A DNA stretch of 64,000 nt from an uncultured Pseudomonadota bacterium (lineage in GTDB: Bacteria; Pseudomonadota; Gammaproteobacteria; Steroidobacterales; Steroidobacteraceae). This document shows, in pieces, positions 17,503 to 56,376 of the stretch. Where the stretch lies: the NCBI GenBank assembly GCA_903884235.1, contig CAISEB010000020.1, positions 62,001-126,000 on the forward strand, in the 5' to 3' direction. The notes under the pieces were generated by a model. It searched no databases. It was given only the letters and a program-made list of their open reading frames with translations, and was not told the DNA's origin. The position numbers and the translations under genes are program-made. The stretch's first letter is position 1; every line of letters starts with the position of its first letter.

Positions 17503-18573
17503 ATGATGTCCGATCGCCTGGCACGACTGCTCTCCTCACGCCCCTGGCTGCTCGCCGATGGCGCGACCGGCAGCAACCTGTTCGGGATGGGGCTCGTCTC
17601 GGGCGAGGCACCGGAGCTGTGGAACGTCGCGCACCCCGACCGAATCACGCTCCTGCACCGAGGGTTCGTCGAGGCCGGATCGGACATCATCCTCACCAAC
17701 AGCTTCGGCGGCACGCGCTACCGCTTGAAGCTGCATGCGGCCGAAGGCCGCGTGCGCGAACTCAACGTCGCCGCGGCTCGGATCGCGAGGGCCGTGGCGG
17801 ACGAAAGTGGCCGGGACGTGGTCGTGGCCGGCAGCATCGGGCCGACCGGCGAGATCCTCGAGCCGATCGGCCCGCTGTCGGCGGATGCAGCGCGCGAGGC
17901 CTTCGCCGAGCAGGCCGTCGCACTCGCCGAGGGCGGAGTCGACGTGCTGTGGATCGAGACGATGTCCTCGCGCGAGGAGATCGACGCGGCGATCGAGGGC
18001 GCGCGCAGCGCCGGCCTGCCGATCGTCACGACGCTCAGCTTCGACACCAACGGGCGCACGATGATGTCGCTGACCCCGGGAGAGCTCGCCGGCATCCATC
18101 GCCAGCACGGGCTTGCCGCCTGTGGCAGCAACTGTGGCGTCGGGCCCTCGGAGCTGCTCGCCTCGATCGTCAACCTCGCGACGGCGTCGGATCCGTCGGC
18201 GGTGCTCGTCGCCAAGGGCAACTGTGGCATTCCCCAGTACGTCGATGGCGCGATCCGCTACAACGGCACGCCGGAACTGATGTCGACGTATGCGTGCATG
18301 GCGCTCGACGCCGGCGCACGCATCATCGGCGGATGCTGCGGGACGACGCCAGAGCACGTGAAGGCGATGCGCGAGGCGCTCGAGCGCCACGTGCCCGGCG
18401 CCCGGCCGGATACCGCGACGATCGAATCCCTTCTCGGCACCATCTCCACCGGGGCCCGGGCACAGCTGCAGGGCCTCATGGACCGGGCATCCGGCGCGGC
18501 GCCCGGATCGACCGGCCGGCGCGGCACGGGCCGCCGCGGTGCCGCGCGCAGCGAAGGCGCCACCGAGACCTGA
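17503..18573 (+). CDS. homocysteine S-methyltransferase family protein (betaine-homocysteine type)
   Basis: A 356-residue zinc methyltransferase that should move a methyl group to homocysteine, giving methionine. The barrel opens with LLADGATGSNLFGMG, as in BHMT and the MetH homocysteine domain, and the zinc thiolates are present: C207/C211 in ACGSNCG and the pair C278-C279 in IGGCCGTTPEHV. The ELWNVAHPDRI segment resembles bacterial betaine (BMT/BhmT) enzymes. Glycine betaine, dimethylsulfoniopropionate or S-methylmethionine are possible donors; betaine fits the choline and betaine genes elsewhere in the window. The C-terminal 40 residues are low-complexity (GSTGRRGTGRRGAAR) and probably disordered. 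Confidence 0.82.
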   Translation: MMSDRLARLLSSRPWLLADGATGSNLFGMGLVSGEAPELWNVAHPDRITLLHRGFVEAGSDIILTNSFGGTRYRLKLHAAEGRVRELNVAAARIARAVADESGRDVVVAGSIGPTGEILEPIGPLSADAAREAFAEQAVALAEGGVDVLWIETMSSREEIDAAIEGARSAGLPIVTTLSFDTNGRTMMSLTPGELAGIHRQHGLAACGSNCGVGPSELLASIVNLATASDPSAVLVAKGNCGIPQYVDGAIRYNGTPELMSTYACMALDAGARIIGGCCGTTPEHVKAMREALERHVPGARPDTATIESLLGTISTGARAQLQGLMDRASGAAPGSTGRRGTGRRGAARSEGATET

Positions 18574-20402: not shown

Positions 20403-20472
20403 TGCGAAACGGGTTCTGCTAGGCACACTCCGCGGTGCAGCGAAGCGCCGGGAGGGCTATGCTCTTCAGGTG

Positions 20473-20811: not shown

Positions 20812-20900
20812 GTCGTCTGCGACCTGAACGTCTCCGTGCCGGCATTGCCGGTACGGTCCCATTCGCATTCCCGCAGGTCACACGACCCGGCGGAGGATCC

Positions 20901-23467: not shown

Positions 23468-26400
23468 TCGCGAGGATCATCGGCTGGTCCGCGCGGCACG
23501 TCGCGGCGGTCCTGTTCGCGACGGTCGTCGTGGTTGCGGCGGGCTGCTATGCGCTGCTGCGCACGCCACTCGACGCGCTGCCGGACCTCTCCGACGTGCA
23601 GGTGATCGTGTACACCGAATACGCGGGCCAGGGGCCGCAGGTCGTCGAGGACCAGGTCACCTATCCTTTGACGACGGCGATGCTGAGCGTGCCCCGCGCG
23701 CGGGTCGTGCGTGGCTTCTCGAACTTCGGCGTGTCGTTCGTCTACGTGATCTTCGAGGACGGCACGGACCTGTACTGGGCCCGCTCCCGGGTGCTCGAAT
23801 ACCTCAACTCCGCGGCCAGCCGCCTCCCCGCGGGCGTCACGCCGACGCTCGGCCCGGACGCGACCTCGGTCGGCTGGGTCTACGAGTACGTGCTGCAGTC
23901 CCGGGACCGCTCGCTCGGGGAGCTGCGTGCCATCCAGGACTGGTTCGTGCGCTACCAGCTGGCCAAGACGCCGGGCGTCGCCGAGGTCGCGAGTGTCGGC
24001 GGGTTCGTGCGCACCTACCAGGTGACGGTCGATCCGCGGCGCCTGCAGGCCTACGGGATATCGCTCGGAGAGGTCACCTCCGCGATCCGCATGAGCAACC
24101 ACGACGTCGGCGGTCGCTCGGTCGAACTCGCGGGCCGCGAATACATGATTCGTGGCCGCGGCTACCTTCGGGGGCTCGGGGACCTCGAGAACATCGTGCT
24201 GCGCAGCGTCGGCGGCACGCCCGTGCGGGTCGCGGACATCGCCCGTGTCGAACTGGTGCCGGACGAACGCCGCGGCATCGCCGAACTCGACGGCAACGGC
24301 GAGGTCGTGGCCGGCGTCGTGCTCGCGCGTGACCGTGAGAATGCCCTCGACGTGATCGGCAGGCTGAAGGCGTCCGTGCGCAGCATCGAGGCGGGGCTCC
24401 CCAAGGGCGTCTCCCTCATCCCCGTCTACGATCGCTCGCAGCTGATCCACCGCGCGATCGACACGCTGCGCTCGACGCTGCTCGAGGAGAGCCTAATCGT
24501 CGCGCTCGTGTGCCTGGCGTTCCTGCTGCACGCCCGGAGCGCGCTCGTGGCGATCCTGATGCTGCCGGTCGGGGTGCTGATCGCGTTCATCGCGATGCGC
24601 CTGCTGGGACTCAATTCGAACCTCATGAGCCTGGGCGGCATCGCGATTGCCATCGGTGCGATGGTCGATGCCGCCATCGTGATGATCGAGAACGCCCATC
24701 GCCACGTCGAACGGATGCCGCCCGGCGAGTCCCGCGTCGCCGCCATCGTCGCAGCCTGCCGCGAAGTCGGGCCGGCGCTCTTCTACAGCCTGCTGATCAT
24801 CACGGTGTCGTTCCTGCCGGTGTTCACGCTCGAGGCGCAGGAGGGCCGGATGTTCCGGCCGCTCGCGTTCACCAAGACGTTCTCGATGGCAGGCGCGGCA
24901 GTGCTGTCGATCACGCTCGTGCCGGCCCTGATGGTGCTGTTCATCCGCGGCCGGATCCCGGCCGAGCGTGCCAACCCATTGGTTCGGCTTCTGATCGCCT
25001 GCTACCGTCCGCTGCTCGCCACGGTGCTCGCGCACAAGCGCCTGACCGTCGTCGTCGCGGCCACGTTGCTCGCCGCCACCACGCTGCCGGCCCTGCGCCT
25101 CGGTGTCGAGTTCATGCCGACGCTGAACGAGGGCACGCTGCTGTTCATGCCATCGAGCCTGCCGGGCATGTCGGTGACCGAAGCCGCGCGCGCCCTGCAG
25201 GTGCAGGATCGCATCCTGCGGAGCTTCCCGGAGGTCGACTCGGTGTTCGGCAAGGCGGGGCGGGCGACAAGCGCGACGGATCCTGCACCGCTCGAAATGT
25301 CGGAGACGATCGTCAACCTGAAGCCGGAGAGCGAATGGCGTCCCGGCATGACGAGCGACCGGCTGGTGGCCGAGATGGACCGCGCTGTGCAGATGCCCGG
25401 GATCAGCAACGCCTGGACGATGCCGATCAAGGCGCGAATCGACATGCTCTCGACTGGCATCCGCACGCCTATCGGCATCAAGGTCTTCGGCAATGACCTG
25501 GCGGAGATGGAGCGACTCGCGAAGGAGATCGAGCACGTGGTCCGCACGGTGCCCGGGACGACGAGTGCATTCGCCGAGCGACTCACCGGCGGTTACTACC
25601 TCGACATCGTCCCGGACCAGGTGGCGCTCTCGCGCTACGGGCTCACGATCAACGACGTCCACGAAGTCGTCAGCGCCGCGCTCGGCGGCGAGCGACTGAC
25701 GACCACGGTCGAGGGACGCGAGCGCTTCGACGTCAGCGTCCGGTATCCCCGCGAGCTTCGCGACGACCCGGACGCGATCGGTCGGAACACGATGATCCCG
25801 GTGCGCGATGGCGGCATGGTGCCGCTCGGGCAGCTCGCGAAGATCGAGATCGTGCAGGGTCCTCCCGGCATCCGGACCGAAAATGCGCTGCTGTCGGCCT
25901 ATATTTTCGTCGACATCCGGGATCGGGACATCGGTGGCTACGTCGCGGAAGCCGAGCGCGCGGTCGCGACGAGGGTGCACTTCCCACCGGGCTATTACGT
26001 GACCTGGAGCGGCCAGTTCGAGTACCTGCAGCACGCGATCGCCAAGCTCAAGGTCGTCGTGCCGGTGACCTTGCTGCTGATCTTCGTGCTGCTTTACCTG
26101 AACTTCAGGCGGATCGGCGACACGCTGATCGTGATGCTCTCGGTTCCGTTCGCGCTCGTCGGCGGCGTCTGGCTCATGTACCTGCTCGGATACAACATGA
26201 GCGTCGCCGCGGCGGTCGGGTTCATCGCCCTGTCCGGCGTCGCGGCCGAAACCGCGGTGGTGATGCTGATGTACCTCGAGCACGCCTGGCAGGAGGTCTC
26301 GACGCGCTGCGCGGGCGCCGGCCGCAGGCCGGGGCCGGCGGACCTCTATGAGGCGGTCGTCACCGGCGCCGTGCTTCGGGTACGTCCGAAGATGATGACG

Positions 26401-26589
26401 GTGCTCGCGATTCTCGCGGGCCTGCTACCGATCATGTGGGGCCACGGCACGGGTGCGGAGGTCATGCGTCGCATCGCCGCGCCGATGGTCGGCGGCATGG
26501 TATCGGCCGCCGTGCTGACACTCCTCGTGATTCCTGCGATCTACGCGCTCGTGCACGAGCGCGAGGCCGCAGGCGGCGCCTCGGCCTAG
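23464..26589 (+). CDS. cusA: CusA-type heavy-metal RND pump
   Basis: A 1041-residue inner-membrane proton-driven pump with 12 membrane helices and two large periplasmic loops. The start is a GTG overlapping the cusB stop (GTGA). The relay motif AIGAMVDAAIVMIENAHRH in helix 4 marks the HME-RND group. Three methionines of the metal site are present at M562 (LLFMPSS), M612 (APLEMSET) and M661 (RIDMLSTG); their spacings of 50 and 49 are exactly those of M573, M623 and M672 in E. coli CusA, so the cargo should be Cu(I)/Ag(I) rather than zinc or cobalt. Its stop codon overlaps the stop of the convergent HD-domain gene. Confidence 0.94.
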   Translation: MIARIIGWSARHVAAVLFATVVVVAAGCYALLRTPLDALPDLSDVQVIVYTEYAGQGPQVVEDQVTYPLTTAMLSVPRARVVRGFSNFGVSFVYVIFEDGTDLYWARSRVLEYLNSAASRLPAGVTPTLGPDATSVGWVYEYVLQSRDRSLGELRAIQDWFVRYQLAKTPGVAEVASVGGFVRTYQVTVDPRRLQAYGISLGEVTSAIRMSNHDVGGRSVELAGREYMIRGRGYLRGLGDLENIVLRSVGGTPVRVADIARVELVPDERRGIAELDGNGEVVAGVVLARDRENALDVIGRLKASVRSIEAGLPKGVSLIPVYDRSQLIHRAIDTLRSTLLEESLIVALVCLAFLLHARSALVAILMLPVGVLIAFIAMRLLGLNSNLMSLGGIAIAIGAMVDAAIVMIENAHRHVERMPPGESRVAAIVAACREVGPALFYSLLIITVSFLPVFTLEAQEGRMFRPLAFTKTFSMAGAAVLSITLVPALMVLFIRGRIPAERANPLVRLLIACYRPLLATVLAHKRLTVVVAATLLAATTLPALRLGVEFMPTLNEGTLLFMPSSLPGMSVTEAARALQVQDRILRSFPEVDSVFGKAGRATSATDPAPLEMSETIVNLKPESEWRPGMTSDRLVAEMDRAVQMPGISNAWTMPIKARIDMLSTGIRTPIGIKVFGNDLAEMERLAKEIEHVVRTVPGTTSAFAERLTGGYYLDIVPDQVALSRYGLTINDVHEVVSAALGGERLTTTVEGRERFDVSVRYPRELRDDPDAIGRNTMIPVRDGGMVPLGQLAKIEIVQGPPGIRTENALLSAYIFVDIRDRDIGGYVAEAERAVATRVHFPPGYYVTWSGQFEYLQHAIAKLKVVVPVTLLLIFVLLYLNFRRIGDTLIVMLSVPFALVGGVWLMYLLGYNMSVAAAVGFIALSGVAAETAVVMLMYLEHAWQEVSTRCAGAGRRPGPADLYEAVVTGAVLRVRPKMMTVLAILAGLLPIMWGHGTGAEVMRRIAAPMVGGMVSAAVLTLLVIPAIYALVHEREAAGGASA

Positions 26590-27131
26590 CTGCGCATCAG
26601 GCTCGCGACCAGCGTCCGGTAGGTGTCGAATCCCGGTGCCGAGAATCCACCGAGCTTGCCCTGGTCATCCCAGTGGCGCAGGCGCACGGCCTCGCGGTGG
26701 AACGGCCGGGCCTCGAACGCGGCGACCTCGGCCGCATCCATCGGCCCGCCCTGCAGGCCGAGCGTGATGATCGAGGCGGGGCTCAGACGGTTCCGGTAGC
26801 CGTCGTCGACCGCGCAGAGGTAGCGCTTCGCGGCCACGTGCAGCGCGATGGGTTCGGTGACCTCGGGACCGAAGTGCTGCGCGAGCCAGGCGGCGCCGAC
26901 GTCCTCGTGGTGGGCATCCGTGTGCCAGTCGGCGATGTCGTCCGGCACTTCGACGACGAGATGGCCGATATCGTGAAGCAGGGCCGCGACGACCTGTGCC
27001 GGCGCGGCACCTTCCTCGGTCGCGAACCACGCGGCCTGCAGGCCGTGCTCCAGCATCGAGACCTGCTCGCCGAAATAGGATCCGAGGCCGCGGTCGGCAT
27101 AGAGCGCCGCCAGCTCGTCGACCAGGTTCAT
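26586..27131 (-). CDS. HD-domain mixed-valent diiron oxygenase (TmpB / PhnZ type)
   Basis: A 181-residue HD-domain protein. PhnZ and TmpB cleave the C-P bond of 1-hydroxy-aminoalkylphosphonates using O2 and a di-iron centre, releasing phosphate and glycine or glycine betaine. Family marks here: Y19-F-G-E22 with H29 in YFGEQVSMLEH, H53-D54 in LLHDIGH, H75 in HHED, H98 with K102 in LHVAAKRYLCA, and D155/D156 in HWDDQGK. These give all six iron ligands at spacings very close to PhnZ. The start ATG overlaps the stop of the oxygenase gene as ATGA, fixing its length and its coupling to that gene. Glycine betaine release (TmpB) is suggested by the surrounding betaine genes, but sequence alone does not settle PhnZ against TmpB. 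Confidence 0.85.
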   Translation of the reverse strand: MNLVDELAALYADRGLGSYFGEQVSMLEHGLQAAWFATEEGAAPAQVVAALLHDIGHLVVEVPDDIADWHTDAHHEDVGAAWLAQHFGPEVTEPIALHVAAKRYLCAVDDGYRNRLSPASIITLGLQGGPMDAAEVAAFEARPFHREAVRLRHWDDQGKLGGFSAPGFDTYRTLVASLMRS

Positions 27132-28261
27132 GCGAGCCTCCTGCGCAGCAGCGCCGCTTCGCTCAGGACGCTGTCCCGCGTCAGGTAGCACCCCTGAAGG
27201 TGCCGGGGATGGCGGGCCGACGAGAACGCCGTGCGTCCGTGCAGCGTGCGCTGGTTGTCGAACACCATCAGGTCACCGTCGCCGAGCCTGAGGCTCACCT
27301 GGAAGCGCGGATCCCGCAGCAGCCCCACGAAGCGGCGGTAGGCCGCGTAGAACGCGTCGCTGTCGTCGGCGGCGAGGTGCAGCGGCGCGATCGAGCGATT
27401 GTTGTAGTGGACGGCGATCACCCGGCCTCGCACATCCAGGCGGATCAGCGGCTTCTCGGAATAGAGCTCGGCACCGGCTGAGCGATACAGGAACGGGACC
27501 GGCGTCGTCGAGAGCACCCGGAACGACTCGGGATCGATCTGGCGCAGGTGCTCCGCAATGGCGAAGCCGTCGCCGAGGAGGCTGTCACCCCCATCGGGCG
27601 AGGAGACGAGGACATGCAGCGCCTGGAATCCCGGGACCGGATCCCTGTAGGGGTTGTCCGTGTGCAGGCCGAGCCCGAAATCGGAATAGGCGAGGTTCTC
27701 GGGGCGCACGACGGATCGCACGTCGAACAGCAGGCCGTAGTTCGTCTCGGCGACCCGGCCGGCGTGGCGCATCGCGTCGAGGATCGCCCCGTCCGCGGTC
27801 GGGACGCCGGATAGGAACGCGATGCCGTCGACGGCGAGACGGGTCAGCCAGTCGAGCCGCGCGGAGTCGTCCCGCGCGAGGGACTCGAACGCGCACCAGG
27901 CGAAATCGGTCGCGCCGTCCATCCCGGCACCCTCCAGCCAGAGCCGGGGCTGCAGTTCAGGCCGGTCGGCCAGCGGATCCCGGCACTGCCTGCCGACCCA
28001 GCCGAGGTCATAGGCAGTGGTCTTACCGTCCGTCCACGCGACGAGGAGCGACTGGCCGTCGATCCTCGCCGATTCGATCGTCGGGTCGGACGGCAGGTCC
28101 GTGATGTCGACCAGCCGCTGGCCGCTGTGGGCATCGCGATCTTCCGGCCGGTTGTCGCGCAGCCACATCGCCGTGAACTCGCCGTCCAGCCCATCGGCAA
28201 GGCGCACGCGCAGGCGCCTTGCCGTTGCGGAAACCTGAATAGATCCTTGTTGGTCAGCCAT
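27128..28261 (-). CDS. 2-oxoglutarate/Fe(II) oxygenase (TmpA / PhnY* / gamma-butyrobetaine hydroxylase type)
   Basis: A 377-residue oxygenase with an N-terminal DUF971-like domain (residues 1 to about 90) and a TauD/BBOX catalytic domain. Iron ligands are H200 and D202 in GLHTDNPYRDP and H341 in RTLHGRTAF. Relatives hydroxylate gamma-butyrobetaine, 2-aminoethylphosphonate (PhnY*) or its trimethyl form (TmpA). The coupled HD oxygenase downstream points to the phosphonate reaction. An oddity: the zinc cysteines normally found after WLRDN in this family (CPCxxC) are absent, the segment reading WLRDNRPEDRDAHSGQR. ATG 28261 overlaps the TGA of the transporter gene by one base (TGATG). Confidence 0.85.
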   Translation of the reverse strand: MADQQGSIQVSATARRLRVRLADGLDGEFTAMWLRDNRPEDRDAHSGQRLVDITDLPSDPTIESARIDGQSLLVAWTDGKTTAYDLGWVGRQCRDPLADRPELQPRLWLEGAGMDGATDFAWCAFESLARDDSARLDWLTRLAVDGIAFLSGVPTADGAILDAMRHAGRVAETNYGLLFDVRSVVRPENLAYSDFGLGLHTDNPYRDPVPGFQALHVLVSSPDGGDSLLGDGFAIAEHLRQIDPESFRVLSTTPVPFLYRSAGAELYSEKPLIRLDVRGRVIAVHYNNRSIAPLHLAADDSDAFYAAYRRFVGLLRDPRFQVSLRLGDGDLMVFDNQRTLHGRTAFSSARHPRHLQGCYLTRDSVLSEAALLRRRLA

Positions 28262-29592
28262 CAATCTGCTCCCGCGGCCACCATGACCACCTTCCTCTGC
28301 TGACGGTACAACGCCGCCGCCGCCACCGCGGAGGCCGCTGCGACGCTCGCAAGCGCCATGAACACGCCCCGCCATCCGAACGCCACCGAGATGCGACCCA
28401 CGGTATCCCCCGCGAGTGCGCCGCCAAGGTATCCCACGCCATCGATGATGCCGGACGATACCGCACCGGCACGACGACCGCCGAAGTCGAGCGCGAAAGC
28501 ACCGCCGAGGTACGAGTAGGGCCCGAGCAGGAAGAACGCGACGATGCCGATGAGCGAGACGACCACCGTGGGCGACACCGCCTCGACCCGCAGCAGCATC
28601 ATGCAGATCAGCGCGCCAGCAGTGGCCGTCAGTCCGCCGAGCAGGAGGACGGGCCGGCCATTCGGGCCCATCCGGTCGCTCAGCCAGCCCGAGGCGATCA
28701 CCGAGATCCCGCCCAGCAGCGGGAACACGGCGCTCAGGCTCCCGGCGCGTCCGGCCTCGAAGCCGACTGCATCGCGCAGGTAGATCGGCGTCCAGGTATC
28801 GAACGTGTTGCGCACGACCGTGCAGCCGAATGACAGCACGCACACGAGCACGAATGCACGGCTCCGCAGCAGTGGCATGACGAGCGACGCGACGGTCAGG
28901 CGCTCGCCTTCGTGCCCGGAATGCAGGTTGAGCGGATTGGTCGTCGCCGGGCGGTGACCGAGCTCGGTGCGGGATTCGCGCAGCAGGAACAGGTTCGCCA
29001 CGAAGAGCACGCCAGCGACGATCGCGGCGAGGTGAAAGATCGATCGCCAGTCATGGCCGGCACTGATCAGCGCGCCCATCCAGTAGCGTGCCGCCGCATC
29101 CCCGGCGAGGTAGCTGACGCTGAGAATGCCGATGATCGCGCCGTGGGACGAGAAGTCGAACCACTTGGAGCAGATCTTGAGCAGCCCCGCCCAGCCGATG
29201 GACTGCGTCAGCCGGTTGCCGACCCATGCGATCGTGAACAGCGGCAGCCCGCCGCCCGCGACAAAGAGCAGGGTGAAGGCCGCCGCCCCGCCGAGCCCGA
29301 CCAGGAAGCTGCGCCGGCCGCCCCAGAAGTCGCCCAGTCCGCCGAGGAACATCTTGCCGAGGGCATAGGCGAGCACGCCCGTTGCCGTCAGCGTGCCGAG
29401 GCTCGTGATGGCCTCGTCATGGGTCATGCCGCCGCGGCGCAAGTCGTCGACGATCAGTGGCATGCCCACCGAAAGGTCGACCCGGCAGAAGTAGTAGGCG
29501 CAGTAGCCGAGGAACAGCAGCACGACGACGAGCACCTGTCTCAGCAGGAGGTGCCGTGCGATCACCCGCGGGTCCTCCGCGCCGTCCGTCAT
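28261..29592 (-). CDS. OPA-family MFS transporter (organophosphate/phosphonate uptake)
   Basis: A 443-residue carrier with 12 membrane helices of the organophosphate:phosphate antiporter (GlpT/UhpT) type. The first helix region GYCAYYFCRVDLSVGMPLIV, the loop ALGKMFLGGLGDFWGGRR and WVGNRLTQSIGWAGLLKICSKWF fit GlpT-like proteins. It should bring an anionic organophosphorus compound across the inner membrane. It heads the three-gene unit with the two phosphonate oxygenases and overlaps the next start, so its likely cargo is the phosphonate they degrade. I use ATG 29592, which has GGGAG upstream; GTG 29601 is an alternative. Confidence 0.8.
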   Translation of the reverse strand: MTDGAEDPRVIARHLLLRQVLVVVLLFLGYCAYYFCRVDLSVGMPLIVDDLRRGGMTHDEAITSLGTLTATGVLAYALGKMFLGGLGDFWGGRRSFLVGLGGAAAFTLLFVAGGGLPLFTIAWVGNRLTQSIGWAGLLKICSKWFDFSSHGAIIGILSVSYLAGDAAARYWMGALISAGHDWRSIFHLAAIVAGVLFVANLFLLRESRTELGHRPATTNPLNLHSGHEGERLTVASLVMPLLRSRAFVLVCVLSFGCTVVRNTFDTWTPIYLRDAVGFEAGRAGSLSAVFPLLGGISVIASGWLSDRMGPNGRPVLLLGGLTATAGALICMMLLRVEAVSPTVVVSLIGIVAFFLLGPYSYLGGAFALDFGGRRAGAVSSGIIDGVGYLGGALAGDTVGRISVAFGWRGVFMALASVAAASAVAAAALYRQQRKVVMVAAGAD

Positions 29593-29720
29593 CCGCACCA
29601 CTCCCGCGGCCGCTTGCCGGTAGCGGAGCCTAGCATGCGTCGATGCGGTGAAGCCGCAGTCGGGTCGCGCGGGGCCGGTGGTAGGCTATGCAGGCCGCAG
29701 CCGACGGAGACGCCAAGCCG

Positions 29721-30500
29721 ATGCCAAACCGACCCACCGTCCTCGTGACCGGCGCATCGCGAGGCATCGGCGCCGGCATCGCGCGCGTGCTCGCCACGCG
29801 CGGGGCGCGCATCGCGGCGCATTTCCACCGCAATCGCGACGCGATCGATGCCGTCGTCGGCTCGCTTCCAGGCGCGGGGCACCGGGCGTTCGCGGCCGAC
29901 ATTGGCGACGCGGATGCCGCGGCGCGGCTGTGGCACGACGTGTCGGAGGCCTTTGGCGTCGTCGATGCACTCGTCAACAACGCAGGCATCTATCTTTTCC
30001 ATCCGCCGCTCGCTTCGGCTGAATCGGAATGGCGCGCCGCATGGCAGGAAACGCTCGCCACCAATCTCATCGGGCCGGCGACGCTGTCGCTGCTGGCCGC
30101 GCAGACGATGGCCGCGCGACCCGGACCCGTGGATGGCACGTTCGGGCGGGGGCGAATCGTCAACATCTCCTCGCGCGGGGCATTTCGTGGGGAGCCCGAC
30201 GCGCCGGCGTATGCCGCCAGCAAGGCGGGCCTGAACGCGCTCGGGCAATCCCTGGCACGCGCGCTCGCGCCACAGCAGATCTACGTCTATACGCTCGCGC
30301 CGGGATGGGTCGAGACCGACATGGCGACCGAGCACCTCGCCGGCCCCGACGGGGATTCGATCCGCGCGCAACATCCGCTTGGGCGTGTCACGCAGGCCGA
30401 AGAACTCGCCAATGCCGTGGCCTACTGCGTGCTGGAGGCGCCACCGGCCATGACCGGGGGCATCATCGACGTCAATGGCGCCAGCTACCTTCGCAGCTGA
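29721..30500 (+). CDS. short-chain dehydrogenase/reductase
   Basis: A 259-residue classical SDR: TVLVTGASRGIGAGIA cofactor loop (residues about 6-21), NNAGIY (near 87), catalytic serine in NISSRG (near 147) and Y-x-x-x-K in YAASKAGLN (near 165). The C-terminus GGIIDVNGASYLRS is typical of FabG-like enzymes. It oxidises or reduces a hydroxyl or carbonyl group with NAD(P)(H). ATG 29721 has GGAGA upstream. The next gene starts 23 bases later and the aminotransferase 11 bases after that, so the three probably form an operon, divergent from the phosphonate cassette. Confidence 0.85.
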   Translation: MPNRPTVLVTGASRGIGAGIARVLATRGARIAAHFHRNRDAIDAVVGSLPGAGHRAFAADIGDADAAARLWHDVSEAFGVVDALVNNAGIYLFHPPLASAESEWRAAWQETLATNLIGPATLSLLAAQTMAARPGPVDGTFGRGRIVNISSRGAFRGEPDAPAYAASKAGLNALGQSLARALAPQQIYVYTLAPGWVETDMATEHLAGPDGDSIRAQHPLGRVTQAEELANAVAYCVLEAPPAMTGGIIDVNGASYLRS

Positions 30501-30975: not shown

Positions 30976-32154
30976 ATGGCCGAAACGCTCGACATCGATC
31001 GCCTGCGCCGCGATACGCCGGCATCGCGCGACCTGATCCACTTCAACAATGCCGGGGCGTCGCTGATCCCGAATCCGGTGTCCGACGCGGTGTTCCAGCA
31101 CCTCGACCTCGAGCGGCGCATTGGCGGCTACGAGGCCGAGGCCGCGGCCCAGGCCGACATCGAGGACTTCTACGACGCATTTGCAGCACTCCTGCACTGC
31201 GGCCGGGACGAGGTCGCGTATGCCGAGAGCGCGACACGTGCCTGGGACATGGCCGTGTATTCCCTGCCGCTGCGGGCGGGTGACCGGATCCTGACCCACG
31301 AGTCCGAATACGCCTCGAACTGGATCGCCCTGACACAACTCTCGCAGCGGCTGGGCGTCGTCATCGACGCGGTACCGTCGGACGCTAGCGGCCAGGTCGA
31401 CATCGATGCGATGCGCCGGATGATCACGCCGGAGACGCGCGTGATCGCGCTCACCCACGTGCCCACCCACAACGGGCTGGTGAATCCCGCCGCCGAGGTT
31501 GGCGCACTCGCGCGCGAATACGGCCTGATCTTCGTCCTCGATGCGTGCCAGTCCGCAGGCCAGCTGCCACTCGACGTCCGCACGCTCGGCTGCCACGTGC
31601 TTTCGGGCACGGGCCGCAAGTTCCTGCGCGGGCCGCGCGGGACCGGATTCCTGTACGTGGAACGGGGCCTGCTTGCGATGCTGGAACCGGCCTTCGTGGA
31701 CATGCGCGCAGCGACTGCGCGGCCACCGGGCGGCTACGACCTCAGGCCGGACGCGCGGCGATTCGAGTCGTGGGAGAGCAGCATCGCGGGGCGCGTCGGC
31801 CTGCGCGCGGCGGTGCGATACCTGCTCGAACTGGGAGTCGATGCGGTCTCGGCCCGGGTGCTGATGCTCGCCTCGTCGCTGCGCAACACGCTCGCGTCGC
31901 TGCCGGGCATCGCCGTCCACGATCGAGGCGCCCTGAAGAGCGGCATCGTCACGTTCACCGTCGACGGTGAATCGGGCGAGGCAACCGCGAAGCGGCTGCG
32001 CGAACGACGCGCGAACGTGTCGGTCGCGGCGCCCGTGGGTGCTCCGCTAGACCCGCAGATCCGCGTGCTGGGCAGTGCGGTGCGCGCGTCCGTGCACTGT
32101 TACAACACCGACGAGGAGATCGCGCGCTTCGCCGCGCTGGTCACCGACCATTGA
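30976..32154 (+). CDS. class V aminotransferase-fold PLP enzyme
   Basis: A 392-residue PLP enzyme of the cysteine-desulfurase/isopenicillin-epimerase branch: HFNNAGASLIPNPV N-terminus, VLDACQSAGQLPLDV with the cofactor aspartate, and the Schiff-base lysine K215 in SGTGRKFLRGPRGTGFLYV. The active-site cysteine loop of true desulfurases is not evident, so lyase or aminotransferase chemistry on an unknown amino acid is more likely. It is not PhnW, the aminoethylphosphonate transaminase, whose N-terminal signature is missing. Probably in an operon with the preceding SDR and secreted protein. Confidence 0.75.
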   Translation: MAETLDIDRLRRDTPASRDLIHFNNAGASLIPNPVSDAVFQHLDLERRIGGYEAEAAAQADIEDFYDAFAALLHCGRDEVAYAESATRAWDMAVYSLPLRAGDRILTHESEYASNWIALTQLSQRLGVVIDAVPSDASGQVDIDAMRRMITPETRVIALTHVPTHNGLVNPAAEVGALAREYGLIFVLDACQSAGQLPLDVRTLGCHVLSGTGRKFLRGPRGTGFLYVERGLLAMLEPAFVDMRAATARPPGGYDLRPDARRFESWESSIAGRVGLRAAVRYLLELGVDAVSARVLMLASSLRNTLASLPGIAVHDRGALKSGIVTFTVDGESGEATAKRLRERRANVSVAAPVGAPLDPQIRVLGSAVRASVHCYNTDEEIARFAALVTDH

Positions 32155-34257: not shown

Positions 34258-34293
34258 CAGGACCTTCCGGTGCGGCACCCTGCGGCGCCTGGA

Positions 34294-34752
34294 TCAGTAG
34301 TCGACGGCGATCTCGGCGTCGCCGACGCCGGCCTGTGCGAGCAGCGCGTGGCGCACGCGCTCGACCTCGAGCATCGGCTGACGGCGCGCGGCGGCGATGT
34401 CGGCTGCCGTGTAGGGCGCGATTCCGGCCCGTTCGGCGGGTGCGGTGAATTTCTCGAGGCACAGGTTCATCACGGCAGCCGCAGCCGCGTCGGAGAGCTG
34501 TGAATTCGCGACTCCGGGAACCCTGATCAGGAATTCACGGCCGCCGTCGACGTGCAGGTAGCGCCCGATCTTGCCGGCCAACGCGGGAACCTTGTGCGGG
34601 ACGCCGCGACCCGCGTCGCCGTGGCAGCCACCGCAGAAGAGGACGTAGTTCTGTGCGACGTTGGTCGCCGATTCTGGTCGTTCCAGCGCATGGCCCGCCA
34701 CGGGCAGCAGCGTCGTCGAGAGCAGCACGGCGATGGCGTGCCGCACGTCCAT
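34294..34752 (-). CDS. periplasmic c-type cytochrome
   Basis: A 152-residue secreted monohaem cytochrome: signal peptide residues 1-22, haem site C40-G-G-C43-H44 in LFCGGCHGDAGRG. The C-terminal part (PYTAADIAAARRQPMLEVERVRHALL) is an extension beyond the haem domain. Its start overlaps the stop of the other cytochrome gene as TGATG. It probably carries electrons from the amine dehydrogenase or from the molybdoenzyme. Confidence 0.8.
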   Translation of the reverse strand: MDVRHAIAVLLSTTLLPVAGHALERPESATNVAQNYVLFCGGCHGDAGRGVPHKVPALAGKIGRYLHVDGGREFLIRVPGVANSQLSDAAAAAVMNLCLEKFTAPAERAGIAPYTAADIAAARRQPMLEVERVRHALLAQAGVGDAEIAVDY

Positions 34753-35788: not shown

Positions 35789-35790
35789 CG

Positions 35791-36978: not shown

Positions 36979-37094
36979 TGGAATCGCCCCCTCGACATGA
37001 ATCGGCATGGACAGTGTGCCACACGGGGCCCATTTTCGGGATGGCCCCCAAGTCGATGGACCGCGGACGACCGGCACGCGATACTCCGGCCGGC

Positions 37095-46874: not shown

Positions 46875-46935
46875 GCGGTCACCCCGGACGTACGATTTTG
46901 TTAACTTACTGTTTAAATGGATCTTTGTCCACTTA

Positions 46936-46959
46936 TTATGAATGAACGTTCATTCATAA
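46936..46959. promoter_or_regulatory. 24-bp perfect palindromic operator
   Basis: A perfect 24-bp palindrome centred at 46947/46948 with core ATGAATGAACGTTCATTCAT lies between the BetI-like repressor and the MttB gene, in a stretch far richer in A and T than the rest of the window. TATTAT at 46934-46939 could be a -10 element it would cover. It is the natural binding site for the adjacent repressor. Confidence 0.75.
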
Positions 46960-47027
46960 ATGACTTGACGAGACGCTTCCGCGCGACGAAGCTTCGGGTT
47001 CCTCAACGGCCCCTCGACGAGATACCC

Positions 47028-48608
47028 ATGACACACCGCGACCCGATGCCCGGCCGGCCTGGCCGCACCCGTGGATCCCGCGTCGCGGAACGCCGTTCGA
47101 TCCGACGCTCGAGCGCCGTGAGTCCGGGACTGGCCGGCGGCACGTACCAGCCACTCTCGCCGTCCGACGTGCAGCGGATCGCGGACGCCGCGCTCGATGT
47201 GCTGGCGCGCATCGGGTTCAGCGCGATCACCGACGAGATCCGCGACTACGCCCTCGCCGGCGGTGCCCATTTCAACGAGCACGGCCGCCTCTGCTTCCCG
47301 CGCCCGATGGTCGAGGACCTGATCGCGGGCGCGGCGCGCGAGATCGTCTACCACGGCCGGGATCCGGCCCGGACCGTGCGCTCCGGGGGCAACCGGGTGT
47401 TCTTCGCGACCTCCGGCGAAGCCGTGCGCTACGTGGACCCCGAGACCGGCGCCTACAGGCCCTCGACACTCCTCGACCTGTACGACTTCTGGCGCATGGG
47501 CGACTTCCTCGAGCACATCGACTTCTGCGGCCAGCAGGTCGTCGCCACCGACGTCTGCGAGGACGCGCGCCTGCACTCGATCAACATCGCCTACGCCGGC
47601 GCCGCGGCCACGACGAAGCCGTTCAGCATCTCCCTCGCCGAGGCATCGACCGTCGCCGACGTCGAGTCCGTGTGGGACACGATCCTCGGACGGAGCGGCG
47701 CATTTCGCGAGCGGCCGTTCGCGGCGATCGGCGTGTGCCCGGTCGTCTCGCCGCTGCGCTTCGGGCCCGACACCTCCGGGGTCCTCTGCGAGGCCGCGCG
47801 CCGTGGCCTGCCGGTCTCGGCCTGCACCGCGCCGCAGGCCGGTGCGACCGCGCCCGCGGCGCTCGCCGGCGCGCTCGTGCAATGCACCGCCGAGGCGCTC
47901 GCGATCGTCGTCCTCGTCAACCTGATCAATCCGGGCGGTCCGGTGGACTTCGGTCCCTGGACGTTCGTCGCCGACCTGCGCACGGGGGCCTTCACGGGGG
48001 GCGGTGGCGAGGAAGCGGTGCTGCAGGCGGCGACCGCGCAGATCGCGAGGCACTTCGGGCTGCCGGGCATTTCAGCAGCCGGCATGACCGACGCGAAGCG
48101 CCCGGACTACCAGGCCGGCTACGAGAAGGGCATGACGATCGCGATGAGTGCCCTCGCCGGCGTCAACATGATCTGCGAGTCGGCCGGCATGATGGGCAGC
48201 CTGATGGGCTGCTCGCTCGAGTCGATGCTGATGGACAACGACCTGATCGGTGCGATCCAGCGCTCCATGCGCGGCATCGAGGTCAGCGACGAATCGCTGT
48301 CGCTGGACGTCATCGAGCGGACGGTGCTCGGGCCCGCCCACTACCTCGGTGCGCCGCAGACGCTGTCGCTGATGGAGTCGGAATACCTCTACCCGAAGGT
48401 GGGCGACCGCACCTCGCTGTCCGAGTGGGAGTACCGGGGCTCGCCCGACCTGATGAAGATCGCGCGCGAGCGCGTCCGGGAGATCATGTCCAGCCACTAT
48501 CCCGACACGCTCGGCGACGGCGTCGATGCCCGGGTGCGGCGCACTTTCGACATCCGGCTGCCCGAGGAGATGATGCGTGCCGGCAATTCACGGTGGACGC
48601 GCGCCTGA
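47028..48608 (+). CDS. trimethylamine methyltransferase (MttB) family protein, second copy
   Basis: A 526-residue MttB-superfamily protein, distinct from the one at 3.8-5.3 kb. Family marks are YQPLSPSDVQRIADAALDVLARIGF near the start, LVNLINPGGPVDFGPWTFVADLRTG, GISAAGMTDAKRPDYQAGYEKGMT and the CESAGMMGSLMGCSLESMLMDNDLIGAIQRSMRGIEV block. No in-frame amber codon is present. ATG 47028 is used; frames reaching further upstream run through the operator and are unlikely. Control by a BetI-like repressor suggests a quaternary amine substrate. No corrinoid protein gene is linked. Confidence 0.85.
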   Translation: MTHRDPMPGRPGRTRGSRVAERRSIRRSSAVSPGLAGGTYQPLSPSDVQRIADAALDVLARIGFSAITDEIRDYALAGGAHFNEHGRLCFPRPMVEDLIAGAAREIVYHGRDPARTVRSGGNRVFFATSGEAVRYVDPETGAYRPSTLLDLYDFWRMGDFLEHIDFCGQQVVATDVCEDARLHSINIAYAGAAATTKPFSISLAEASTVADVESVWDTILGRSGAFRERPFAAIGVCPVVSPLRFGPDTSGVLCEAARRGLPVSACTAPQAGATAPAALAGALVQCTAEALAIVVLVNLINPGGPVDFGPWTFVADLRTGAFTGGGGEEAVLQAATAQIARHFGLPGISAAGMTDAKRPDYQAGYEKGMTIAMSALAGVNMICESAGMMGSLMGCSLESMLMDNDLIGAIQRSMRGIEVSDESLSLDVIERTVLGPAHYLGAPQTLSLMESEYLYPKVGDRTSLSEWEYRGSPDLMKIARERVREIMSSHYPDTLGDGVDARVRRTFDIRLPEEMMRAGNSRWTRA

Positions 48609-52161: not shown

Positions 52162-52913
52162 GCCCGGTTCTCCTGCATGCTGTTGCCGCCGTCGACGACC
52201 AGCAGCTGGCCGGTGACGTACGACGACTCCTCGGTGCACAGGAAGGCGATCGCCGCGGCAACCTCGTCGGCACGACCCGAGCGCCCGAGCGGCGTCGCGA
52301 GTCCGGCAGCACGCTCGGCCTCGGTCTGCGAACCCGTCGCGATCCAGCCCGGTGCCACCGCATTGACCGTGATCCCCTGCCGCGCGACCTCGAGGCAGAG
52401 CGAGCGGGTCATGCCCAGCATCGCTGCCTTCGCCGCGGCATAGGCGCTGTCGCCGGCAACACCGGCGACCGCACCGGTCGTCGAGGAGACATTGACGATC
52501 CGTCCATAGCCCGCCGCAGCCATGCCCGCCAGGCAGGCGCGGCTGACGAGGAACGCCGTCGTCAGGTTGCGCGCGAGGACGCGGTTCCAAAGCTCGAGGG
52601 ACATCGCGCCGAGCGATACTTGCTCGTCGATGACGCCGGAGACCGCCATGCCCGCGTTGTTGACGAGCACGTCGACGCGGCCCAGGGCCGCGACGAGCGC
52701 GGCAACCGCGTCCGGATCGGTCAGGTCACAGATCGCGCCGGTCGCATCGGCACCACGGCCTCGCAGCTCCTCGGCGCGCTCGTGGATGCGCGCACTGGTG
52801 GCGACCAGTGCGACCCTGAACCCCGCCGCAGCCAGCCGGGCGGCGGTCGTGTAGCCGATGCCGCTGGGACTGCCGGCTCCTGTGACGAGGGCGAGACGGG
52901 CGGGAACGGGCAT
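52158..52913 (-). CDS. short-chain dehydrogenase/reductase
   Basis: A 251-residue classical SDR: LALVTGAGSPSGIGYTTA cofactor loop (with one extra residue), NNAGMAVSG, NVSSTTG, catalytic YAAAKAAML and the ending TGQLLVVDGGNSMQEN. It heads the SDR-SDR-gamma-glutamyltransferase unit. The promoter must lie in the 123 bases shared with the divergent choline sulfatase gene. Two different SDRs in one unit suggest consecutive steps on one alcohol or carbonyl compound. Confidence 0.87.
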   Translation of the reverse strand: MPVPARLALVTGAGSPSGIGYTTAARLAAAGFRVALVATSARIHERAEELRGRGADATGAICDLTDPDAVAALVAALGRVDVLVNNAGMAVSGVIDEQVSLGAMSLELWNRVLARNLTTAFLVSRACLAGMAAAGYGRIVNVSSTTGAVAGVAGDSAYAAAKAAMLGMTRSLCLEVARQGITVNAVAPGWIATGSQTEAERAAGLATPLGRSGRADEVAAAIAFLCTEESSYVTGQLLVVDGGNSMQENRA

Positions 52914-53036
52914 GGATGGCTCCGACGTGGGACGGCCGATTATAAGGTCGCAGGCGCCGGGCCCGGGGTCCCGTCGCCGGATTTCGTGCGAACATGGCCA
53001 CCCCTCACCGATCCCCGTTCCGGAGCGTGCCGTTCC

Positions 53037-54551
53037 ATGGCGTCCCGACCGAACATCCTGATCCTGCAGGCCGACCAGCTCACCGCCGGCGCATTGCGCT
53101 GCTATGGCGGCAGGGTCGCCCGCACGCCGAACATCGATGCCCTCGCCGCGGGCGGCGTGGTGTTCGATTCGTTCTACACGAACAGTCCGCTGTGCGCGCC
53201 CTCGCGGTTCTCGATGATGTCCGGGCAACTGCCCTCGCGGATTGGCGCCTACGACAACGCTGCGGATTTCGCGGCGGACGTGCCGACCTTCGCGCACTAC
53301 CTGCGCGCCTGCGGTTACCAGACCGCGCTGAGCGGCAAGATGCATTTCTGCGGGCCTGACCAGCTGCACGGATTCGAGGAGCGCCTGACGACCGACATCT
53401 ATCCGGCCGACTACGGCTGGACTCCGGACTGGACACGCTTCGAGGATCGTCCGGGCTGGTACCACACGATGGACTCGGTCACGCAGGCGGGTCCCTGCAC
53501 CCGGACGAACCAGGTCGACTTCGACGACGAGGTCGTCTTCGCCGCCCGCCAGAAGCTGTTCGACATCGCGCGCGGCAAGGACAAGCGCCCGTTCTGCCTC
53601 GTCGTGTCGATGACCCACCCGCACGATCCGTACACGACCCCGCAGGAATACTGGGATCGCTACGAGGATTCGGAGATCGACATGCCGCGCGTGTCGATGC
53701 CGGTCGACGAGCTCGATCCCCATTCGACGCGCGTGCGCCACGTCATCGGTCTCGGACTGCAGACGCCTACGGAGCGCCAGGTCCGCGACGCGCGACGCGC
53801 CTACTACGGCTCGATCGCCTACGTCGACGACCAGGTCGGCAAGCTCGTCCAGACGCTGAAGGACGCGCGCCTCGACGAGGACACGATCGTGATCGTCACG
53901 TCCGACCACGGCGACATGCTCGGCGAGCGCGGCATGTGGTTCAAGATGACGTTCTTCGAGGGCGGATGCCGCATTCCACTGATCGTCCACGCCCCGGGAC
54001 GCTTCGCGCCGCGCCGCGTGCGTGAATGCGCCTCGCTCGTCGACCTGCTGCCGACGCTGGCCGAGCTCGGGCACGGGAGCGCGCCAGAACTCTCCGCGGC
54101 GATCGACGGCCGCAGCCTCGTTCCGGCCCTCCAGGGCGCCGCCGGGCCCGGCGAGGTCTTCGGCGAGTACCTCGGCGAGAGCGCGATCGCACCGATCGTG
54201 ATGATCCGTCGCGGCTCGCTCAAGTTCGTGCACTGCCCGGCAGATCCCGACCAGCTTTACGACCTGGCCTCGGATCCGGACGAGCGCACCAACCTCGCCG
54301 CCCGGGCCACGCACGCGGCGACCGTCGCCGAGCTGCGCGCCGAAGTGGCGCGACGCTGGTCGCTGCCGGCGATCCACGCCGCGGTGCTCGCGAGCCAGCG
54401 GCGCCGTCATTTCGTCTACGGCGCGCTGCGCCAGGGGCGTTACCAGCCGTGGGATCACCAGCCCGTGCGCGACGCCACGCGCGCCTACATCCGCAACGAC
54501 CAGGAACTCAATGATCTCGAGGCGATGGCGCGCTTCCCGCGCGTGTCCTGA
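53037..54551 (+). CDS. betC: choline sulfatase
   Basis: A 504-residue cytosolic sulfatase that releases choline and sulfate from choline-O-sulfate. The residue turned into formylglycine is C53 in PLCAPSRFSMMSGQLPSR, and the BetC-specific stretches YQTALSGKMHFCGPDQLHGFEERLTTDIYPADYGWTPD, SMTHPHDPY and TSDHGDMLGERGMWFKM are conserved along its length. The C-terminal YQPWDHQPVRDATRAYIRN is the BetC tail. There is no signal peptide, as expected. The choline-type transporter gene begins inside its last codons, linking hydrolysis and uptake. Confidence 0.92.
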   Translation: MASRPNILILQADQLTAGALRCYGGRVARTPNIDALAAGGVVFDSFYTNSPLCAPSRFSMMSGQLPSRIGAYDNAADFAADVPTFAHYLRACGYQTALSGKMHFCGPDQLHGFEERLTTDIYPADYGWTPDWTRFEDRPGWYHTMDSVTQAGPCTRTNQVDFDDEVVFAARQKLFDIARGKDKRPFCLVVSMTHPHDPYTTPQEYWDRYEDSEIDMPRVSMPVDELDPHSTRVRHVIGLGLQTPTERQVRDARRAYYGSIAYVDDQVGKLVQTLKDARLDEDTIVIVTSDHGDMLGERGMWFKMTFFEGGCRIPLIVHAPGRFAPRRVRECASLVDLLPTLAELGHGSAPELSAAIDGRSLVPALQGAAGPGEVFGEYLGESAIAPIVMIRRGSLKFVHCPADPDQLYDLASDPDERTNLAARATHAATVAELRAEVARRWSLPAIHAAVLASQRRRHFVYGALRQGRYQPWDHQPVRDATRAYIRNDQELNDLEAMARFPRVS

Positions 54552-56376
54552 GACCAGCCGCCTAGCGAGCCTCGCGGCCGCCGTGATCGTCACGGCGCTC
54601 TGCGCGCTCGCGAGCTCGCCCGCCGTCGCTCGCGACGCCCGCGACGCCCCATCCTGCCGCGACGTGCGGCTCTCCGACGTCGGCTGGACGGACGTCACCG
54701 CCACGACCGCGCTGCTCTATGAAGTGCTCGGCGACCTCGGCTACCGGCCGAAGACCACCCTCCTGTCCGTCCCGGTGACGTTCGCGGCCATGAAGGCCGG
54801 TGACATCGACGTGTTCCTCGGCAACTGGATGCCGGCCCAGATCCGCACGCGCCAGCCGTACATCGACGACAGATCGATCGAAGTCGTAGGCCCGAACCTC
54901 GTCGGCGCGAAATACACGCTCGCGGTCCCCGCCTACGCGTACGAGGCCGGGTTGCGGGACTTCAAGGACATCCCACGTTTCGCGGGACCCCTCGGCAGTC
55001 GCGTCTACGGGATCGAGGCGGGCAACGACGGCAATCGCCATATCCTCGCGATGATCCAGCGCAACGAGTCGGGCCTCGGGGACTTCCACGTCGTCGAATC
55101 GAGCGAGCAGGGCATGCTCGCCGAGGTGTCGCGGGCCATCGGAGCCAGGCAGCCGATCGTGTTCCTGGCGTGGGACCCGCACCCCATGAACATGCTGTTC
55201 GACCTGCGCTACCTGACGGGCGGCGACAAGGAATTCGGCCCGAACTTCGGCGGCGCGACCGTCTACACGCTCGCGCGCGGCGGCTACCTCGCCGCGTGCC
55301 CGAACCTCGCCCACCTGCTACGCAACGTCGTGTTCACCCCACGCGGCGAGAGCGAGATGATGATGCTGATCCAGCAGGAGCACCTCGCTCCGGACGCCGC
55401 CGCCCGGCGCTGGCTCTCCCGGCACCCGCAGGAGCACGCCGCGTGGCTCGCCGGAGTCACGAATGCGGATGGACGGCCCGTGGGCACGCGCGGCGCGGGC
55501 CGCACCGCGCTGGCCGCGGCGACGCGCGTCGAACAATGGCTCGCGGATTACAAGCTGCCGGTCGGTTCCCGGATCGCGACCGGCATCGACTGGATCAAGC
55601 TGCATGGCGCGATCGTCTTCGGCGCGATCGCGTGGGTCACCAGCACGCTCGTGGGTGCGGTCGGCAGCGCCCTGCATGCACTGCCATCGCCGCTGCTGAT
55701 CCTCGGCGTCGCCGCGCTCGCCTGGCTGCTGCAACGTTCCCTGGCGCTCGCGGCGTTCGTCACGGCGGCGCTGCTGTTCATCATGAACCAGGGCTACTGG
55801 CAGCCCACGCTCGATACGCTCGCGCTCGTGCTCGTGTCGGCGGCGATCGCGACGCTGGTCGGCGTGCCGATCGGCATCGCGACGGCGCACCGCCCGCGAC
55901 TGAACGCCATGCTGCGACCCGCGCTCGATCTCATGCAGACGCTGCCGACGTTCGTCTACCTGATCCCGACGCTCGTGCTGTTCGGGCTCGGCGTCGTTCC
56001 GGCGGTGATCTCGACGGTGATCTTCGCGCTCCCGGCGACGATCCGCCTGACCCACCTCGGCATCAGCGGCGTGCCGCAGTCGATGCTGGAGGCGGGTGCG
56101 GCGTTTGGCGCCACCCGATGGCAGCTGCTCACCAAGGTCGAGCTGCCGAGTGCCGCGCCGCTTATCCTCGCCGGCATCACGCAGTGCATCATGCTCAGCC
56201 TGTCGATGGTGGTGATCGCCGCACTCGTCGGCGCCGGGGGGCTCGGCGTCCCGGTGGTCCGGGCCCTGAACACCGTGCAGGTCGGCACGGGCTTCGAGGC
56301 GGGGCTTGCGATCGTTCTGCTGGCGATCATCCTCGACCGCATCGCCAGAATCCGCGATTCCGGCGGAGCGCACTAG
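54511..56376 (+). CDS. fused choline-binding protein and permease (ChoX-ChoW)
   Basis: A 621-residue fusion: signal-like N-terminus (1-40), a choline-binding ChoX-type domain (about 48-330), a linker, and a ChoW/ProW permease with about seven helices (370-615) including the EAGAAFGATRWQLLTKVELP coupling loop. The aromatic cage of ChoX is present at W59, W106, Y135 and W221; the spacings 47, 29 and 86 equal those of W43, W90, Y119 and W205 of the Sinorhizobium protein. It should capture choline in the periplasm and pass it inward with an ATPase partner. No ATPase (ChoV) gene is in the window. The ATG at 54511 overlaps betC by 41 bases; GTG 54583 is an alternative. Confidence 0.88.
   Translation: MISRRWRASRACPETSRLASLAAAVIVTALCALASSPAVARDARDAPSCRDVRLSDVGWTDVTATTALLYEVLGDLGYRPKTTLLSVPVTFAAMKAGDIDVFLGNWMPAQIRTRQPYIDDRSIEVVGPNLVGAKYTLAVPAYAYEAGLRDFKDIPRFAGPLGSRVYGIEAGNDGNRHILAMIQRNESGLGDFHVVESSEQGMLAEVSRAIGARQPIVFLAWDPHPMNMLFDLRYLTGGDKEFGPNFGGATVYTLARGGYLAACPNLAHLLRNVVFTPRGESEMMMLIQQEHLAPDAAARRWLSRHPQEHAAWLAGVTNADGRPVGTRGAGRTALAAATRVEQWLADYKLPVGSRIATGIDWIKLHGAIVFGAIAWVTSTLVGAVGSALHALPSPLLILGVAALAWLLQRSLALAAFVTAALLFIMNQGYWQPTLDTLALVLVSAAIATLVGVPIGIATAHRPRLNAMLRPALDLMQTLPTFVYLIPTLVLFGLGVVPAVISTVIFALPATIRLTHLGISGVPQSMLEAGAAFGATRWQLLTKVELPSAAPLILAGITQCIMLSLSMVVIAALVGAGGLGVPVVRALNTVQVGTGFEAGLAIVLLAIILDRIARIRDSGGAH

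Follow-up and report, generated by a model that had tools for sequence, protein, structure and literature searches.

The DNA analysed here is a 64,000-nucleotide stretch from an uncultured member of the Steroidobacteraceae (the window), in which three overlapping minus-strand genes form a candidate cassette for the import and oxidative cleavage of a phosphonate. In order of reading, they encode an OPA-family MFS carrier of 443 aa (28261..29592), by context an AepP-like aminophosphonate permease; a TmpA-like 2-oxoglutarate/Fe oxygenase of 377 aa (27128..28261), called the hydroxylase below; and a TmpB/PhnZ-like HD-domain diiron oxygenase of 181 aa (26586..27131) predicted to act on the carbon-phosphorus (C-P) bond. 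The open reading frame (ORF) of the carrier starts at the ATG at 29592, with an alternative in-frame GTG at 29601, and ends with the TGA at 28263-28261, which overlaps the ATG of the hydroxylase gene (28261-28259) in a TGATG junction. The ATGA at 27131-27128 likewise holds the TGA of the hydroxylase gene and the start of the HD gene (ATG 27131), and the stop of the HD gene at 26586 overlaps by 4 bases the stop of a convergent RND pump gene ending at 26589. The sequence therefore bears out the three minus-strand genes with TGATG and ATGA overlaps described in the original prediction. The carrier, which was said there to be fused into the unit, is encoded by a gene that overlaps the next one without fusion. 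Scanning the cassette for promoters and terminators returned nothing, and such a scan is uninformative at its GC content.

The hydroxylase combines a TauD domain with the N-terminal domain of gamma-butyrobetaine hydroxylase (GBBH) in Pfam. The HxD..H triad that had been read in the second gene is present as the iron triad H200/D202/H341, together with the 2-oxoglutarate Arg R353, and Y175, F179, Y192 and Y359 occupy aromatic positions that bind the trimethylammonium group in GBBH. The sharing of aromatic residues is stated in PMC9296572 (here and below, published reports are cited from excerpts), which gives N187, N287 and R288 as the phosphonate ligands of TmpA and two asparagines for human GBBH. 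In our alignment all three TmpA ligands are kept in the window hydroxylase as N189, N288 and R289, and human GBBH has an Ala at the position of TmpA R288; an offset of 6 between the TmpA chain and the numbering of PMC9296572 was set by us. When 85 TauD proteins were tabulated, 32/32 rows of clade A, to which the window belongs, had the first Asn as well as the Arg, and the middle Asn was replaced by Ser in some of these rows (e.g., L028 and L029). The full set is missing from other TauD clades of the family: clade B has Asp, Pro and Arg, and clade C with its neighbours L186 and L189 has Asp or Ala, then Asn, then Tyr, His or Trp. The outlier L187 likewise lacks the full set, and one member of clade C (L184) exceeds the cut-off for trimethyllysine dioxygenase. 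The alignment omits L035 because of a stop codon.

With its GBBH-like N-terminal domain and 318 bits to the gamma-butyrobetaine dioxygenase model TIGR02409, its second-best NCBIfam match, the hydroxylase might be a true GBBH of carnitine metabolism that lies beside the HD gene incidentally. We regard this as very improbable, since that score is below the cut-off of 414.75 and below the score of the top model, TmpA (NF049936), R289 stands where human GBBH has Ala, and a clade-A hydroxylase gene lies within 1.5 kb of 56 of the 74 HD matches in the family. Moreover, the enzyme is 39% identical to TmpA versus 28% to human GBBH, and its AlphaFold2 model (predicted local distance difference test score 90) matches TmpA best in the PDB (6npb, TM-score 0.86), human GBBH coming next (0.70-0.78). 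It does not group with human GBBH in the TauD tree, where this protein is the sole GBBH, sits on a long branch and has no bacterial GBBH beside it. We therefore rejected a true GBBH on scores, R289 and coupling to the HD gene, with one GBBH reference, and the grouping with true GBBHs that had been named as evidence against the original prediction was seen neither in the scores, ligand residues and fold match nor in a tree with that one reference. A PhnY*-type hydroxylase was rejected as well because PhnY* belongs to another family (PhyH) and the partner in the window is of the TauD/GBBH type; the label "TmpA/PhnY*-type" given earlier mixes two hydroxylase families, and its PhnY* half has to be dropped.

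The HD enzyme has H29, H53-D54, H75, H98 and D155 together with Y19xxE22, and these align with H34, H58-D59, H80, H104, D161 and Y24/E27 of PhnZ. The alignment thus confirms the six iron-ligand positions and the YxGE-type motif claimed for the third gene, which correspond to the H..HD..H..H..D/YxxE motif of the PhnZ kind in the excerpt of PMC8177086. The protein is 43% identical to TmpB and 40% to PhnZ. A methylphosphonate route was rejected because the enzyme scores 170 bits against the PhnZ1 model NF052439 (cut-off 300) and the hydroxylase model of that route matches PhyH-family proteins. In a 120-row tree, the 31 HD enzymes linked to a clade-A hydroxylase form one clade (SH-aLRT, an approximate likelihood-ratio support, of 99). 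The approximately unbiased (AU) test rejected one common origin for every TauD-linked HD enzyme (p 0.002) with a set that included L046, which is placed elsewhere in the tree; without L046 and with the nested rows L042, L103 and L118 added, a joint clade of the triad and TmpB-side HD enzymes was not rejected (p 0.48). We therefore claim neither a single origin nor its absence. The HD data omit the second piece of the L178 HD gene, at a contig end, and both the HD and TauD trees omit L040 and L041, whose contigs are already represented by L159 and L155. As a side observation, the Glu of YxxE, the residue facing the amino group of the substrate, is replaced by Ser, Ala, Thr or His in 12/133 HD rows (L057, L063, L065, L068, L084, L085, L087, L091, L098, L100, L108 and L115), and the substrates of these enzymes may perhaps be phosphonates that carry no amine.

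Among 217 genomes of the family, the clade-A hydroxylase was found in 58, the HD enzyme in 71 and both in 56; clades A and B were assigned in these genomes by us from identity, and the tree bore out the assignment of 11 clade-B rows. The carrier gave 70 matches in 57/217 genomes; 44 of them are next to both enzyme genes, 8 next to the HD gene only, 3 next to the hydroxylase gene only (55/70 next to either) and 15 next to neither. The 44 adjacent triads show that the association of the three genes is beyond chance. In the class at large, TIGR03276 matched at E 1e-20 in 9/369 genomes, including the window's own, and none of these matches was above the cut-off. TmpA-TmpB-type pairs without an OPA carrier are widespread: a carrier relative was seen at 4 of 80 named loci kept from at least 218 confirmed HD loci, and two of the four (L040 and L041) are L159 and L155. 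At three loci of one genus (L160, L166 and L167), a sodium:dicarboxylate-type symporter gene lies upstream of the hydroxylase gene and a distant OPA-type MFS gene downstream of the TmpA-TmpB-like genes, so that the carrier appears to have been swapped for another; the symporter of L160 was assigned by Pfam, and those of L166 and L167 are 86% identical to it.

The PDB matches of the carrier are SLC37A4 and GlpT. GlpT R45, K80, R269 and Y393, functional residues of that protein, are kept in the carrier as R37, K80, R261 and Y388, and GlpT H165 corresponds to Y161; R37 and R261 are invariant across 10 aligned carriers. Excerpts of published work describe AepP of Pseudomonas putida BIRD-1 as a GlpT-related OPA-family permease for 2-aminoethylphosphonate (2AEP) whose gene is co-located with phnWAY or phnWX (PMC8316502, Murphy et al.), and show it to be the route by which 2AEP enters when it supplies nitrogen and carbon (PMC9311074). 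Of the 15 carrier matches that stand beside neither enzyme, 13 were fetched, the gene fragments G618:C497 and G622:C289 being left out. A phnW gene was found near 12 of the 13, and phnW, phnA and phnY together near 10; at L221, PhnW, PhnA and PhnY each exceed the cut-off. The thirteenth carrier (L238) is close to a contig end and is accompanied by a glutamine-synthetase-type gene, and the same gene is present at 8 of the 12 phnW-linked loci. In a carrier tree rooted on distant GlpT, the eight of these 13 carriers that were included form one clade (support 100/100). This clade is nested within the cassette carriers, with supports of 94/97 and 93/93 for the nesting, the second narrowly missing the star mark. 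These phnW-linked paralogues are the strongest evidence for the class of substrate. Because AepP has been published and paralogues of the carrier lie in phnWAY clusters beside phnW, a GlpT-type phosphonate importer is not the oddity that the original prediction took it to be. When AepP was sought via phnX neighbours, PhnX was found in 8/274 class genomes, and no carrier match was present in the stretches fetched; a carrier search of 229 class genomes gave, besides the window's own genome, only 4 matches, at 27-29% identity.

Genes of betaine and amine metabolism are found on the plus strand of the window. The gene for betaine-homocysteine S-methyltransferase (BHMT; 17503..18573; NF005718, 478 bits, cut-off 338) lies 8 kb from the HD gene. 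Farther away are genes for an MttB-type methyltransferase (46917..48608; 344 bits, below the cut-off of 525, with PDB matches including glycine betaine methyltransferase 9yce) and a choline-sulfatase (52620..54551; TIGR03417, 811 bits, cut-off 433), and a single ORF for the binding protein and permease of a choline ABC transporter (54511..56376; TIGR03414 and TIGR03416 above cut-off). In total, the window encodes two proteins of the MttB type, which, like a BetI-like regulator, score below cut-off, and it also encodes a flavoenzyme closely related to histamine and trimethylamine dehydrogenases. Of 13 other carriers of the cassette in the same genus, 8 have BHMT no farther than 11 kb from the HD gene, and none was seen in the stretches fetched for the other 5. 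The distance is at most 250 bases in L023, L024, L151 and L157, about 2 kb in L022 and about 4.6 kb in L153. In L150/L240, L152/L241 and the window, TolC/CusB/CusA-type genes intervene and the distance is 8 to 11 kb. In the window, the interval 18777-26589 between BHMT and the cassette contains these efflux genes together with a 541-aa ORF that has no annotation, and the same genes lie between the two in L150/L240; L023, L024, L151 and L157 are free of the efflux genes and the ORF, and there BHMT adjoins the HD gene. At other loci of the family, the cassette has OYE-type genes (L025, L027, L030 and L163) or MttB-type genes (L030 and L164) nearby. A BHMT, OYE or MttB match was present at 11/31 fetched clade-A loci versus 1/18 clade-B/C loci (Fisher p 0.036), a weak enrichment, as this is a hand count over related genomes and OYE is not a proven betaine gene.

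Taken together, these data suggest that the cassette very probably serves the oxidative cleavage of an aminophosphonate-type compound. Families, active-site residues, conservation and context all support the phosphonate import and two-step oxidative C-P opening that had been predicted. Because TmpA/TmpB and AepP act as published, the steps may be pictured as follows: the OPA carrier would import the phosphonate, probably swapping out phosphate; the TmpA-like enzyme would hydroxylate the carbon adjoining phosphorus; and the HD diiron enzyme would break the C-P bond to give phosphate and a carboxylate. With moderate confidence, and by analogy with these systems, we favour 2-(trimethylammonio)ethylphosphonate as the likely substrate and glycine betaine and phosphate as the presumed products, with direction of transport, antiport and regulation equally putative. 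The earlier proposal of betaine as the organic product draws support from the choline-sulfatase, choline ABC transporter and BHMT above cut-off, the MttB-type genes below it and the position of BHMT near the cassette, and BHMT or the MttB-type enzymes could demethylate the betaine. The phosphate released may exit through the same carrier and pay for the next phosphonate imported; spent in this way, it would leave betaine, with its carbon, nitrogen and methyl groups, as the profit more than phosphorus. Also in keeping with this reading, PhnJ was not found in this 95%-complete genome, nor was PhnX at E 1e-40, and a Pho-box scan of the window gave 3 matches versus 2.5 expected, which is chance, and none near the cassette.

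Several observations weigh against this assignment. The scores fall short of the curated cut-offs: 365 bits against 400 for the hydroxylase in the TmpA model, 189.5 against 300 for the HD enzyme in the TmpB model NF049941 and, narrowly, 207.8 against 214.6 in the Phn-HD model TIGR03276, and 153 against 407.75 for the carrier in its top NCBIfam model, TIGR00881. As a yardstick, L033 passes the TmpA and TmpB models with 589 and 342 bits. In the TauD tree, the window lies in its own 32-row clade A (SH-aLRT 100), TmpA of Leisingera caerulea lies in a separate 16-row clade, and clade A is closer to the uncharacterised clade B than to TmpA (SH-aLRT 89); the triad HD clade is likewise separate from both the TmpB clade and PhnZ. 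With such scores and clades, the proteins are TmpAB-like and not proven TmpAB. The aromatic positions are kept in clade B too and nearly so in clade C, so that they fix neither the substrate nor its methylation state. No BHMT, OYE or MttB match was present in the first stretch at 20/31 fetched clade-A loci, and BHMT turned up at two of the 20 once longer stretches were examined. The Pho-box scan relied on a consensus of the E. coli type. The carrier is AepP-like by family and gene context, and its suggested kinship to AepP is an analogy. Finally, OPA-HD pairs without a clade-A hydroxylase exist in eight genomes of the family (L208-L215).

Some of these points would fit the same chemistry on 2AEP or its mono- or dimethyl forms, which would give glycine, sarcosine or dimethylglycine and make the betaine genes a general quaternary-amine island. 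The carrier paralogues beside phnWAY, a 2AEP route, the position of both enzymes outside the TmpA/TmpB clades and the aromatic residues that do not separate clades speak for such a substrate. We nevertheless consider it rather unlikely, because the excerpt of PMC10574752 pairs the 2AEP hydroxylase PhnY* with PhnZ and reports TmpA to be highly specific, the neighbours at L038 and L039 are of the PhyH family and not TauD-type, and BHMT lies near the cassette.

The OPA-HD pair standing without a hydroxylase, seen outside the window, is the main surprise of the analysis. Besides the eight family genomes, it was found without TauD in a Planctomycetota locus (L058) and on a Hymenobacter plasmid (L207, NZ_CP043649), the single record of a plasmid search, where PhoX, a Na/Pi symporter, the OPA carrier, the HD oxygenase, SusC and SusD are encoded within 13 kb. 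The HD enzymes of the eight family cassettes, once added to the tree, fall among the triad HD clade, and L213-L215 are flanked by the same OYE and M14-peptidase genes as the full triad in L025, L027 and L163 (the M14-type neighbours are 73-78% identical), which places the gain or loss of the hydroxylase at a single site. These pairs and shared flanks raise the alternative that the OPA-HD pair is the true unit, acting on phosphonates that are already alpha-hydroxylated, and that the TmpA-like gene extends its range to the unhydroxylated form. This we judge improbable: a clade-B TauD encoded elsewhere in 7/8 of these genomes, compared with 16/58 clade-A genomes (Fisher p 0.002, uncorrected for relatedness), could hydroxylate in trans. 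Clade B also co-occurs with the HD gene (23/28 clade-B genomes versus 48/189 others; Fisher p 1e-8, likewise uncorrected), and in L177 and L178 it is encoded directly upstream of the carrier, hydroxylase and HD genes. Members of clade B (L177:6291-7322, L178:2914-3945, L050:13152-14213 and rows L170-L176, L179 and L180) have Asp/Ser/Pro/Arg at TmpA N187/N286/N287/R288, and the L177 protein scores 319 bits in the TmpA model and 229 in the GBBH model.

Our reading of the complete triad as an importer and two-step oxidase can be extended, tentatively, to a portable OPA-HD core. The first-step oxidase varies, being TmpA-like, an HpnW-type FAD oxidase (L055) or absent (the eight family genomes, L058 and the Hymenobacter plasmid); the core may be portable and may work by phosphonate:phosphate exchange, with the phosphate from C-P cleavage driving further uptake, so that the cell would gain betaine or another carboxylate and not phosphorus. 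Where the hydroxylase is absent, this core would be supplied by phosphonates that are alpha-hydroxylated in nature or by a clade-B oxygenase working in trans.

Other genes lie upstream of the cassette. A divergent SDR gene (29688..30500, plus strand), to which we give no pathway role, is kept beside 8 of the 13 other same-genus carriers. It is followed at 30976-32154 by a gene for an EgtE/SufS-like pyridoxal-phosphate enzyme (170 bits to EgtE, cut-off 400), found near 5 of the 13, and at 32164-37077 by genes for a molybdopterin oxidoreductase, two cytochromes c and the light and heavy chains of a tryptophan tryptophylquinone amine dehydrogenase, whose light chain is closest to aromatic amine dehydrogenase and has its gene near 6 of the 13.

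If the proposed function is true, a lineage other than the source of TmpA/TmpB would be seen to couple phosphonate turnover with the metabolism of betaine, and AepP-like OPA carriers would gain a second set of catabolic partners. It would also make available a genetic test of phosphonate uptake paid by phosphate export. The natural occurrence of both cassette forms, complete and lacking the hydroxylase, at a single locus allows a direct test of the order in which the two oxidations take place and of whether both are needed.

Among known systems, TmpA/TmpB of L. caerulea resemble the window pair in that a GBBH-type 2-oxoglutarate/Fe hydroxylase and an HD diiron C-P oxygenase are encoded together, with iron ligands, YxxE loop and TmpA phosphonate ligands in common. 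They differ from it in identity (39% and 43%), clade and equivalog cut-offs, and tmpAB is a two-gene operon in the excerpt of PMC10574752, whereas the window operon includes the OPA carrier. AepP is likewise a GlpT-related carrier tied to phosphonate catabolism, the GlpT arginines are kept in the window carrier, and the paralogues of this carrier are encoded in phnWAY clusters, an arrangement also published for AepP (excerpts of PMC8316502 and PMC9311074), but the window carrier is partnered with oxidative cleavage enzymes. From PhnY*/PhnZ, which act on 2AEP, and GmPhnY*/GmPhnZ1, which act on methylphosphonate, the window differs in its TauD/GBBH-type hydroxylase, although every ligand and the YxxE of PhnZ recur in its HD enzyme, at 40% identity; PhnZ lies in another clade, whose loci L038 and L039 have a PhyH-family neighbour (that of L038 scores 215 bits in the methylphosphonate hydroxylase model, cut-off 500). 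The HpnW-PhnHD phosphonatase clusters, as excerpted in PMC11203657, share a TIGR03276-type HD enzyme and have an FAD oxidase in place of the TmpA-like hydroxylase; L055 combines the OPA carrier and HD enzyme with a TIGR03364 (HpnW-type) oxidase above its cut-off. We found no title or abstract in the open-licence PubMed Central literature describing an OPA carrier with TmpAB-like genes. Each part of the cassette thus has a known relative, and the combination, with its optional hydroxylase, looks new.

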